Source: Pseudomonas serboccidentalis (lineage in GTDB: Bacteria > Pseudomonadota > Gammaproteobacteria > Pseudomonadales > Pseudomonadaceae). Taken from it: a DNA stretch of 64,000 nucleotides. The stretch spans positions 830,132-894,131 of the forward strand of contig NZ_CP101655.1 in NCBI RefSeq assembly GCF_028830055.1. Direction: 5' to 3'. The notes beneath the pieces are model-generated. The model ran no database searches. It was given only the letters and a program-made list of their open reading frames with translations, and was not told where the DNA came from. Shown here piece by piece: positions 16,225 to 20,889 of the stretch. Every line of letters starts with the position of its first letter. The stretch's first letter is position 1. The position numbers and the translations under genes were made by a program.

Positions 16225-16311
16225 TCAGGCGCGCCAACGCCAACGGGCGTGTGCCTTGATGACTTGATCCAGAAGTTTGCTGACGATCAACACGGGGAAG
16301 GTCTCGTTCAT
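16225..16311 (-). CDS. trpGDC leader peptide (28 residues, Trp-Arg-Trp)
   Basis: Short open frame upstream of trpG reading [12 protein letters not shown]... and ending ARWRWRA. The two Trp codons lie 5 and 3 codons before the stop, as expected for an attenuation leader peptide sensing charged tRNA-Trp. A GGAA-type ribosome site lies before the ATG. Its last 39 bases match the end of gph, just before trpE, at 35 of 39 positions. Its job is inferred to be regulatory; the peptide itself probably has no function. Confidence 0.8.
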
Positions 16312-16346
16312 ACGTTCCGGCACAGTAACTTAGCTGGGCAGAGCGT

Positions 16347-16375
16347 GCAATATGGCGGGGCCGGCGGGGGATCAA
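16347..16375 (-). promoter_or_regulatory. Candidate trpGDC promoter
   Basis: Minus-strand TTGATC (16375-16370), a 17-base spacer and TATTGC (16352-16347) lie about 36 bases before the leader-peptide ATG. This gives a short untranslated start, typical of attenuated trp operons. The spacer is very GC-rich. Confidence 0.5.
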
Positions 16376-16468
16376 ACTTTTGCAGGGTTCACGACCGATG
16401 GCAAAAGGCCGGAAGTTTTTGGTACTGTCGTTTCGTTCACCTACAACAATAAATAAACGGACTTGCTC

Positions 16469-18379
16469 ATGATCAAACAGACGTTGTTTGTACCGCTCGC
16501 CGGATGCCTGCTCGCCATGGCATGCGCCCAGGCCTACGCAGCACCCGCTCCCTACTCCAATTTCATCGTTTTCGGCGACAGCCTGAACGATGCCGGGACC
16601 TTCAAGGACACCGGCGGTCCGGCCGGCGCCACCCAGCGCTACACCAATCGCACAGGCCCACTGTACAAGGATGGCACCGGCGAAAACCGCAACCTCAACG
16701 CCACCCAGATCATCGGCGGCAAACTGGGCTTCAGCCCTGATCAGACCGCCTCCTCGTCCTCGGCTGTACGCGCTGGTGAAGGTTTGGCGGACGGCAACAA
16801 CTGGGCGGTGGGCGGTTACCGCACCGACCAGATTCTCGACTCGATCACCACGCAGTCCGCCACCGGCGAACGCACCCGCAGCGGCTACCTGCCTTCGAAC
16901 GGCTTGCGCGCCGATCCGAACGCGCTGTATTACCTGTCCGGAGGCGGTAACGACTTCCTTCAGGGCCGTGTGCTCAGCCTCGACCAGGCCAGCTCGGCAG
17001 CCGATCGCCTGGCCGATAGCGTGCGTACACTGCAAGGCGCCGGCGCCAAATACATCATGGTCTGGCTGTTGCCGGACATCGGCCTGACCCCGGCGATCAA
17101 CGGCTCTCCGCTGCAGAGCTTCACCTCGCAACTCAGCGCCCAGTTCAACACCGAGCTGGTCAGCCAGTTGCAGGGCATCAATGCTGAAATCATTCCGCTG
17201 AACATTCCGGTGCTGCTCAAAGAAGCCTTCGCCAACCCGGCGCAGTTCGGCCTCGCGACGGATCAGAACCTGACGGCCACCTGCTTCAGCGGCAACAGTT
17301 GCACAGAGAACGCCAAGTACGGCATCAACAGCGCTACCCCGGATCCGACCAAGCTGATCTACAACGACTCGGTGCACCCGACCGAAACCGGCCAGCGCCT
17401 GATTGCCGATTACGCCTATTCGCTGCTGGCGGCACCGTGGGAGCTGACCTTGCTCCCGGAAATGGCCCAAGGTTCGTTGCGCGCGCATCAGGATGAACTG
17501 CGCAACCAATGGCTGGCCGATTGGGAAAACTGGCAGGCCGTGGGCCAATGGCGCGCCATCGTCGCCGGCGGCGGTCAACATCAGGATTTCGACGGCCAGC
17601 ACAGCGCCGCCAGTGCCGACGGCAACGGCTATAACCTGAACATCGGCGGCAGCTATCGCCTCAACGAAGCCTGGCGTGTGGGTGTGGCCGCCGGTCTCTA
17701 CCACCAGAAACTCGAAGCCGGCGACGCTGACTCCGAATACAAACTCAATTCCTACATGGGCACCGCGTTTGCCCAGTACCAGCAAAACCGCTGGTGGGGC
17801 GATCTGGCGATGACCGCCGGCAAACTCGACTACGACAGCCTCAAGCGTAAATTCCAGCTGGGGGTCAACGAGCGTGGAGAAAAAGGCGATACCGACGGCT
17901 ACGTACTGGCGATCAGCGGCCGCCTCGGCTACGACATCGCGCAGCAGGCCAGCAGCCCGTGGCACCTGTCGCCGTTCGTCAGCGCCGATTTCGGCAAGAC
18001 CGAAGTGGATGGTTACTCGGAAAAAGGCGCGGACTCCACGGCGCTGACTTTCGATGACCAGTCGCGCAACTCCCGGCGTCTGGGCGTGGGTATTCAGGGC
18101 AAATACCAGATCACCGCGCAGACCGAAGTGTTCGGTGAATTCGCTCACGAGCGTGAGTACAACGATGACCGGCAGGACCTGACCATCAACCTAAACAGCC
18201 TGCCGGGCAACCGTTTCACCCTCGAAGGCTACGAGCCGCAGACCAATCTCAATCGCCTGAACCTGGGCGTGAGCCACAAGCTCACTCCGGATCTGGCCCT
18301 GCGCGCCAGCTACAACGTGCGCAAGGATGATGACTTTACCCAGCAAGGGGTCAACGTCGGCGTCAGTCTCGATTTCTGA
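16469..18379 (+). CDS. estA: GDSL-type autotransporter esterase EstA/EstP
   Basis: Outer-membrane-anchored lipase/esterase: the passenger is displayed outside while the C-terminal beta-barrel sits in the outer membrane. The 636-residue precursor has a signal peptide of about 24 residues, the SGNH nucleophile in FGDSLND (Ser38, Ser14 after cleavage, as in P. aeruginosa EstA), GGGND and the Asp/His motif DSVHPTETG. The C-terminal 270 or so residues form an autotransporter barrel ending in GVSLDF. In P. aeruginosa EstA affects rhamnolipid production and motility. It lies between trpE and trpG, transcribed against both, and ends at a terminator shared with trpE. Confidence 0.94.
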
Positions 18380-18518: not shown

Positions 18519-20000
18519 TCAGCTTTCCGGGGTTTGCTCGGCCAGGGCCACCGCGCGGAACATCGCGCGGCGCTTGTTCAGGGTTTCTTCCCATTCCAGC
18601 GCCGGCACCGAGTCGGCCACGATGCCGCCACCGGCCTGTACGTGCAGTTCACCGTTCTTGATCACCGCGGTACGAATTGCAATCGCGGTGTCCATGTTGC
18701 CGTTCCAGGCGAAGTAACCGACCGCCCCGCCATACACGCCACGCTTGACCGGCTCCAGTTCGTCGATGATTTCCATCGCGCGAATCTTCGGTGCGCCAGA
18801 CAAGGTACCCGCCGGCAGAATCGCCCGCAGTGCATCCATTGCCGTCAGCCCGGCCTTCAACTGGCCGGTGACGTTGGAGACGATGTGCATCACGTTGGAA
18901 TAACGCTCGATGACCATTTTCTCGGTGAGTTTCACCGAGCCGATTTCCGAGACACGACCGGTGTCGTTACGACCCAGATCGATCAGCATCAAGTGCTCGG
19001 CGATTTCCTTGTCGTCCGACAGCAGGTCCTCTTCCAGCGCCAGATCGGCTTCTTCGGTGGCGCCACGCGGGCGGGTACCGGCAATCGGGCGCACGGTGAT
19101 CAGGTTGTCTTCGACCCGCACCAGCACTTCCGGCGAACTGCCAACGACGTGGAAGTCGCCGAAGTTGAAGAAGTACATGTACGGCGTCGGGTTGAAGCAG
19201 CGCAGTGCGCGGTACAGATCGATCGGTGCGGCCTTGAAGTCGATCGACATACGCTGCGACGGCACAACCTGCATGCAGTCACCGGCAAGGATGTATTCCT
19301 TGATGGTGTCGACGGCTTTTTCGTAGTCGCTCTGAGTGAAACTGGAGCGAAACACCGGATCAGCCGCTTGCTGCTTGCTGAAGTCCAGGCCACGGCGCGG
19401 CGTGATCGGCTGGCGCAGCTTTTCCAACAGTTCCTGCAATTGCGCCTGGCCCTGCTCGTAAGCATCGGCTTGCGCCGGGTCGGCCAGGACGATGGCGTGC
19501 ATCTTGCCGGCGAGGTTGTCGAACACCACCACCGCATCGGAGACCATCAGCAGAATGTCCGGCACGCCCAGCGGATCCGGGTTCGGGCATTTGCCCAGAC
19601 GCTTTTCCACGTAGCGCACACAGTCATAACCGAAGTAACCGACCAGGCCCCCGTTGAAGCGCGGCAGACCGGCGATGGTCGGCACGTTGTAACGGGCCTT
19701 GAAGGTTTCAACGAAGGCCAGCGGGTCTTCGACGTCATGGCTTTCGGTCTCGACGCCATCGACGGTGATGCTCACGTGATGGTCATGAACCCGCAGCACG
19801 GTGCGGCACGGCAGGCCGATGATCGAGTAACGGCCCCATTTCTCGCCGCCCTGCACCGATTCGAGCAGGTAGGAGTTGGGCTGGTCGGCCAGTTTCAGGT
19901 AGATCGACAGCGGCGTGTCGAAGTCGGCCAGGGTTTCGCAGGCCAACGGAATGCGGTTGTAGCCGTCAGCGGCCAAGCGCAGGAATTCTTCGCGGATCAT
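18519..20000 (-). CDS. trpE: Anthranilate synthase component I
   Basis: First committed step of tryptophan synthesis: chorismate plus ammonia (from TrpG) to anthranilate. The 493-residue protein has the feedback-site motif LLESVQGG near the N-terminus and chorismate-binding signatures PIAGTRPRG and [11 protein letters not shown]. It is separated from trpGDC by estA and preceded by a leader region whose Trp-rich peptide is the end of gph. Confidence 0.97.
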
Positions 20001-20070
20001 GAGGTGCCTCGTGGTGTGAGGTGCTAACAGTCAGGTATGCAAACGCGCCGGCGAGCCGGCCAGAAATCAG
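20001..20070 (-). promoter_or_regulatory. trpE leader, probable attenuator
   Basis: Seventy bases between the gph/leader-peptide stop and trpE. The minus strand shows GCCGGCTCGCCGGC about 10 bases after the stop, followed by GCGTTTGC. The palindrome GGCGCGCC formed by the Trp-Arg-Ala codons could instead pair with the downstream GGCGCG, giving two exclusive folds as attenuation requires. The U-tract is weak (three T), so the terminator strength is uncertain. Confidence 0.55.
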
Positions 20071-20115
20071 TCAGGCGCGCCAACGCCAGCGGGCCAGGGC
20101 CTTGATGACTTTCAT
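20071..20115 (-). CDS. trpE leader peptide embedded in the 3' end of gph
   Basis: The last 14 codons of gph read [14 protein letters not shown] and are in the same frame as a possible internal ATG at 20115. They match the end of the trpGDC leader peptide ([13 protein letters not shown]), at 35 of 39 bases including the stop. This Trp-Arg-Trp stretch sits 70 bases before trpE and is the natural leader peptide for its attenuation. Whether ribosomes start at this ATG or arrive from gph cannot be told from sequence; no strong ribosome site precedes it. Confidence 0.65.
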   Translation of the reverse strand: MKVIKALARWRWRA

Positions 20116-20889
20116 CCAGAGTTTGCGGGTGACCACCACGATGGCGTTTCCAGAATGGGATTGAGAAGCGTCGGCCAACGTTATCTCAGCGGCTTTACCG
20201 AGGCAACCGGGAATTAGCTTGCGCAGATCATCGATCACCAGCGCCGGGGATTCCTCGGCAATCGGCCGGCCATGGTTGTAGCCATAGCTCAGCGCCACGC
20301 ACTTGACCCCTGCCGCTTTCGCCGCCAGCACGTCGCTGCGCGAGTCGCCGACGAACAGCGATTGCGAGGCCGGAATGTTGGCCATTTTCATCACGAAGAA
20401 CAACGCAGCCGGGTCGGGCTTCTTCTGCGGCAGGGTGTCGCCGCCGATGATCCACTTGAAGTAGCGGCCGATCTTCATCTGATCCAGCAGCGGCGCGACA
20501 AAACGCTCCGGCTTGTTGGTAATCAGCGCCATCGCCACGCCCTGCTTGTGCAGCCATTTGAGGGTGTCGCGCACGCCGGGATAGACCACGGTCAGCTCAT
20601 GGCTCGCGCCGTAGGCGTCCATGAACACTTCCAGCGCGTGCTCGGCCTCGACGTCATCCACCGCCGAATGATCGATGCCGCCGGCCAGCGCCCGGCGCAC
20701 CAGCACCGGGGCGCCATTGCCGACCCACTCGCGCACCGACTCGATGCCGGCAGGCTTGCGGCCGAGGGAGAGCAGCATGGTGTCCACCGCCGCCGCCAGG
20801 TCGGGAACCGAGTCGATCAGCGTGCCATCCAGATCGAACATCACCAACCGTGGCAGTTGCCCCGGGAACAGCTGCTCAAAACCGCTCAT
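20071..20889 (-). CDS. gph: Phosphoglycolate phosphatase
   Basis: HAD-family phosphatase that removes 2-phosphoglycolate. The 272-residue protein has the nucleophile motif DLDGT (Asp19 to Thr23), TNKP (motif II) and VGDSRSD (motif IV). It is about 20 residues longer than the E. coli enzyme (252). The extra tail is basic and Trp-rich ([18 protein letters not shown]) and coincides with the trpE leader peptide, so its sequence may be kept for regulation and not for catalysis. It overlaps rpe by 4 bases. Confidence 0.94.
20178..20206 (-). promoter_or_regulatory. Possible internal trpE promoter inside gph
   Basis: Minus-strand TTGCCT (20206-20201), a 17-base spacer and TAACGT (20183-20178) lie within the last codons of gph, about 60 bases before the internal ATG of the leader peptide. 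The match is weak, but the position is what an attenuated trpE transcript would need. Confidence 0.3.

Follow-up and report, generated by a model that had tools for sequence, protein, structure and literature searches.

The whole stretch of DNA that was analysed (the window) is 64,000 nt long and carries on its minus strand a phosphoglycolate phosphatase gene, gph (20071–20889, 272 codons), followed by trpE, the gene for anthranilate synthase component I (18519–20000). Gph was assigned by its open reading frame (ORF) together with a full-length match (residues 1–272) to the equivalog model NF009698 (556 bits, cut-off 466) and a match to TIGR01449 over residues 16–225, being thus of the PRK13223 type (272 aa), and TrpE by a match to TIGR00564 (573.7 bits). 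The gph stop codon, TGA, lies at 20073–20071, and the trpE ATG (20000) follows 70 nt beyond it, with the Shine-Dalgarno sequence GAGG at 20007–20010 on the same strand. Four nucleotides (20886–20889) are common to rpe and gph, and translation of gph is probably coupled to that of rpe. Between trpE and trpGDC, the opposite (plus) strand holds an ORF of 638 codons (16463–18379), which looks like a GDSL-esterase autotransporter, as judged by reading its sequence. At gathering scores, only a tRNA was matched by Rfam in the 64,000-nt window, and no leader family.

The 3' end of gph contains a trpE leader ORF (20071–20139, minus strand) of 22 codons with a probable GTG start and three Trp codons, its frame and stop codon being common with gph. 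Trp codon 8 (20116–20118) and Trp codons 18 and 20 (TGG CGT TGG, 20080–20088; all minus strand) correspond to gph codons 258, 268, and 270, and each is TGG in 157/157 unique fused genes whose length is exactly 272 codons, the set used for codon conservation. Trp content by itself is unremarkable, as, over both strands and all frames of the window, at least two Trp occur in the 12 codons ahead of 99 of the 3038 stop codons; the conservation of the leader is what is remarkable. A candidate Shine-Dalgarno sequence, the weak GGAAA, is found at 20147–20151 on the minus strand, and many relatives have AGAGA at this position. Among the 157 genes, GTG is found at gph codon 251 (20139) in 153 and ATG at gph codon 259 (20115) in all, so that conservation within the fused clade alone cannot choose between the two starts. 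Across all loci with a leader, GTG stands in the 22-codon register in 185/202 fused and 66/102 unfused cases, the remainder being partly longer leaders, and in some unfused species a stop codon lies just a few codons ahead of the GTG. GTG was preferred over ATG 20115 as the leader start: elsewhere in the family the ATG is replaced by ACG (L041, L050, and L351) or ATA (L088 and both loci of genus g18), and GAT-CAA stands at that place in the leader ahead of trpG in the window. By these comparisons, the probable start of the leader is GTG 20139.

The ORF coordinates and the fixed TGG codons bear out the preliminary description in its central claim, that the end of Gph is a Trp-codon leader of trpE, in frame, with a common stop and 70 nt from trpE. 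The interval given there (20071–20115, minus strand) covers the final 14 leader codons and the stop; it omits the third conserved Trp codon (20118–20116) and the likelier start at GTG 20139. The internal start proposed there is likewise favoured, at this GTG rather than at ATG 20115.

A paralogous, free-standing leader of 22 codons lies ahead of trpGDC on the minus strand (GTG 16293 to TGA 16225; 16225–16293) and ends 163 nt ahead of the trpG ATG (16061). It is preceded by a promoter-like element of TTGCAC, 17 nt, and TACTGT (16322–16350, minus strand). Read from the GTG, both leaders have 22 codons, and they have in common a KAxARWRWRA end and the same promoter-like spacing; the trpG leader differs from the trpE leader in being free-standing and in having neither Trp-8 nor the internal ATG. 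Leader matches in the collected loci and the window numbered 361, of which 21 precede trpG (the one in the window is L361), and GTG is found 22 codons ahead of the stop in 21/21 of these. The trpE leaders of genera g5 (L326–L330) and g18 (L358–L359) also lack Trp-8 and retain RWRW, and genus g7 (L334–L335) has a W-rich ORF ending in WHRWRCCA. Trp-8 as the sole sensor was ruled out, being missing from the trpG leader and from at least two genera (g5 and g18).

For comparison with relatives, 398 same-genus genomes were searched and 170 loci were taken: 35 high-scoring, 61 of 80 mid-range, and 74 of 78 low-scoring ones. Among the 78, G079 and G330 had no close gph or trpE match, and G232 and G359, in which the gph match was fragmented, were left out. 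Named loci were obtained with a 23-base leader DNA pattern, which matched at least 120 loci; 99 of these had both gph and trpE, and 21 did not. One of the latter, L171 from P. fluvialis, is a trpG leader. A further 40 loci came from 18 other genera of the family. The named set overlaps the first set of 170 (L014 and L173, for instance, share one contig, as judged by length), and the resulting 309 loci are not 309 species. An RWRWR leader was found ahead of trpE in 304/309 loci, 99 of which had been selected by the leader pattern; by source, it was present in 170/170 same-genus and 35/40 other-genus loci. The leader was fused in frame to gph in 202 loci and unfused in 102, and five loci had none; L134, in which the gph match is broken within the core, was scored as unfused. 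The fused arrangement is that of the fluorescent pseudomonads and their close relatives; fused loci include those of P. fluorescens, P. koreensis, P. putida, P. syringae, and P. nitroreducens, and unfused ones those of P. oryzihabitans, P. mendocina, P. oleovorans, Stutzerimonas stutzeri, and P. kuykendallii. In the unfused loci listed, gph mostly ends soon after the enzyme core and the leader is an ORF of its own, which may stand in any of the three frames (0, 1, or 2) with respect to gph. In 3/40 other-genus loci, L355 and L356 (g17) and L359 (g18), the leader was retained with no gph match in the fetched upstream stretch. The genes gph and trpE were adjacent in 170/170 same-genus loci, and no Gph tail conserved with trpE elsewhere was seen among these loci, which had been collected around gph or gph-trpE.

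Several single loci deviate in arrangement. L046 (G051:C1) has a partial second gph match (residues 60–272) between the full gph and trpE, apparently the product of a tandem duplication; the contamination listed for this genome is 9%. In L337 and L338 (genus g9), insertions between the attenuator and trpE lengthen the spacer from the usual ~70 nt to 116 and 213 nt. L323 (genus g3) lacks the RWRWR leader, and its gph runs into trpE, with a stop 4 nt beyond the trpE start; the attenuator may have been lost here.

For the protein tree, 9 of the 309 loci were unusable, and 228 rows remained after removal of near-identical ones. On this tree, the fused state costs five changes with an unfused root and seven with a fused root, and the clade with the fused rows has an SH-aLRT value of 85. 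The DNA tree, from which three long-branch rows (L323, L348, and L349) were excluded, requires four state changes and groups 140 fused rows with 6 re-separated ones in a single clade. By parsimony, the fusion was gained once and reversed three times (L054/L056/L060; L061/L063; L111), and the leader is still intact in the re-separated loci. As the leader stands separate, in any frame, where gph stops earlier, the leader is independent and gph grew through it.

The enzyme core of Gph extends to about residue 229 and is followed by a tail of residues 230–272. Unfused relatives are without this tail yet have the leader, which upholds the earlier proposal that the leader explains the length of the tail. 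In the 157 fused genes, entropy at codon positions 1, 2, and 3 was.418,.331, and 1.035 in the core,.886,.652, and.881 in the linker (codons 223–248), and.019, 0, and.192 at codons 258–272; the linker thus does not have the conservation pattern of a protein. The comparison of the last residues with the HAD core, called for in the preliminary description, gave a mean third-position entropy of 0.19 for codons 258–272; the lowest value among all 15-codon stretches of the core was 0.68. In an AlphaFold model built from 24 sequences, the core had high confidence and residues 231–272 had pLDDT below 50, and the tail is therefore predicted to be disordered.

A promoter-like element, from which transcription of the leader and trpE would start, lies inside gph (20178–20206, minus strand) and consists of TTGCCT (20206–20201), 17 nt, and TAACGT (20183–20178). 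The motif TTGN3-N17-TAN3T, which was defined after inspection of the data, was found ahead of the leader in 186/186 unique fused and 79/92 unique unfused regions (the other 13 being without it) and in 4/1355 equal windows of the gph core. Its two boxes coincide with gph codons 228–229 and 235–238. The former, GGT TGC, are nearly fixed (153/157 each), and the latter (GAG in 103, ATA in 143, ACG in 132, and TTG in 147 of 157 genes) have nearly invariant third positions, with entropies of 0.14–0.17. A generic scan reported neither a sigma-70 promoter nor a terminator on this strand at gph-trpE.

Length changes in the interval from the promoter-like element to the stop of the leader were counted by parsimony and treated as independent. 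If the joined frame were neutral, indels of any length would be expected. Multiples of three made up 12/15 changes in the fused clade, a count that includes three long-branch rows, one of which gives an in-frame event, and 9/38 in unfused lineages (Fisher 3.4e-4). In the spacer between leader and trpE of the fused clade, they made up 10/60 (7e-6 against 12/15). When the three long-branch rows were excluded and the DNA tree was used, the counts were 11/14 in the fused clade, 7/37 in unfused lineages (1.4e-4), and 13/58 in the spacer (1.6e-4). The common gph-leader frame thus appears to be kept by selection, and the counts indicate that gph is translated through its tail and that breakage of the frame is disfavoured; three lineages survive without the joined frame. 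The same indel test suggests that ribosomes translating gph also cross the leader.

A conserved hairpin, GCCGG-CUCG-CCGGC, follows the leader stop (20047–20060, minus strand) and has no U-tract; it is also a candidate 3' end for rpe-gph. A permissive search gave a fold after the stop in 75/75 representatives, eight of which were not a single simple stem, and the fold of L148 had no G+C-rich stem. By eye, the stems vary in sequence between species and the pairing is retained. RNAalifold on alignment A1, in which MAFFT had misaligned the hairpin, gave four pairs, none with both sides changed. The mean hairpin energy in 28 representatives was −9.1 kcal/mol against −5.6 kcal/mol in shuffles, about 11% of which reach −9.1. 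A U-tract was not found after the hairpin: the median was 3 U in 8, and TTTT occurred in the next 12 nt in just 4/75 representatives. When a ribosome was placed on the RNA, the hairpin was retained in 73/75 representatives with the ribosome at the stop, in 70/75 at Trp-18, and in 14/75 at Trp-8, and with no ribosome in 42/75. The corresponding value for a stall at Trp-8 with shuffled upstream segments was 632/1500, and the upstream segment paired with the hairpin in 55/75 representatives against 843/1500 with shuffled ones. The predicted folding switch is thus only modestly better than shuffles, and on such predictions a classical terminator/antiterminator is possible.

The reading that we consider probable is that of an independent trpE leader, with a promoter and a GTG start of its own, whose control region has been engulfed by gph. 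In one clade, gph would have lost the stop codon after its enzyme core, so that its reading frame continues across the trpE promoter and the leader and ends at the stop of the latter. The leader would be read mainly by ribosomes that initiate at GTG 20139 on transcripts from the trpE promoter. When Trp is short, these ribosomes may stall at the leader Trp codons and thereby allow more trpE expression, as in known systems by analogy and in P. putida, where trpE and trpGDC are reportedly regulated by attenuation (a finding attributed to Olekhnovich and Gussin, 2001). On read-through transcripts of rpe-gph, gph ribosomes would traverse the same Trp codons in frame, and their passage across the leader would add a disordered, basic tail to Gph.

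The output step may be of another kind, and it is conceivable, if rather unlikely, that control acts on trpE translation or RNA stability and not through transcription termination, with the leader pairing with the flank of the hairpin and with CCACG by the trpE Shine-Dalgarno sequence. This would suit a hairpin without a U-tract. It would also suit the complementarity between GCAAAC (20121–20126) and its possible partner GTTTGC (20039–20044, both minus strand), for which the GCAAAC:GUUUGC duplex had a permutation p of 0.0002 over 28 representatives picked with the odd ones known. The segment 20126–20035 folded with a z of −1.99, and the predicted fold of 20140–20000 pairs CGUGGUG with CACCACG. 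Against this, the 141-nt leader fold (20140–20000) had a z of −0.17 and the trpG leader 0.93, no better than shuffles. In the comparison of 75 sequences, GCAAAC:GUUUGC pairing showed little excess (self −14.4, cross −13.8 kcal/mol), L001 being worse than average, and a long-range helix is suggestive only. The P. putida genes have, moreover, been described as regulated by attenuation. A study of P. aeruginosa 3' ends (PMC8297930), which also shows premature 3' ends in Pseudomonas, reports that only about one fifth of the reads in 3'-end peaks were at predicted intrinsic terminators, so termination is possible with no U-tract. Factor-dependent termination is possible as the output step.

That gph ribosomes serve as a second Trp sensor for trpE, selection keeping the frame so that both trpE transcripts are attenuated, is an idea that we regard as doubtful. 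In a stronger form of what the preliminary description had suggested, the ribosomes that complete gph would be the main determinant of trpE attenuation, and the leader would have no initiation of its own; this is quite improbable. The frame-preserving indels of the fused clade would agree with such a role, as would the absence of a reported terminator between gph and trpE on this strand and the overlap with rpe, which places gph in an operon. As the main mechanism, however, it is not supported: the leader has its own promoter-like element and a GTG, both conserved. In most other genera sampled the leader is unfused, in the three loci of g17 and g18 named above no upstream gph was matched, and a free-standing sister precedes trpG. 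The leader is also intact in the three lineages that broke the frame. A tail that is a functional part of Gph, with incidental Trp content, would account for the maintained frame across the clade but is very improbable, since unfused relatives have the same leader and no tail, the linker is not conserved as protein, the tail is predicted to be disordered, and the conserved codons coincide with the leader and the promoter boxes.

If the engulfed independent leader is the correct reading, the C-terminus of a housekeeping enzyme is at the same time an amino-acid leader peptide, with a promoter-like element in the same coding stretch, and the locus would clearly exemplify the annexation of a regulatory ORF by a neighbouring gene. 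The fusion would account for the tail of about 40 residues that is included as protein in NF009698, the curated Gph model of 272 positions. With its leader unchanged in unfused, fused, and re-separated lineages, the family constitutes a natural experiment on whether the ribosomes of an upstream gene can drive attenuation. Leader-peptide attenuation of trpE is already known; the in-frame fusion with gph is the new part within the literature searched, and its surprising aspect is the common frame, which is apparently under selection. No account of a gph-leader fusion was found there in titles and abstract openings, and among the papers searched none joined trpE, leader peptide, attenuation, and Pseudomonas with gph and none contained KALARWRW.

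Among known systems, the Trp_leader family of Rfam (RF00513) is a functional analogue; the window had no hit to it at gathering scores. Ribosome-mediated trp attenuation, including that of P. putida, likewise has a short ORF with clustered Trp codons ahead of a trp gene and a hairpin after its stop; here, in contrast, the leader and the promoter-like element lie inside the upstream gene, the frame and stop are common with it, and there is no U-tract. In E. coli frdD-ampC, the control region of one gene (promoter and attenuator) overlaps the end of its upstream neighbour. That arrangement resembles the present locus in the position of the control region and differs from it in having no Trp leader peptide in frame with an upstream enzyme.
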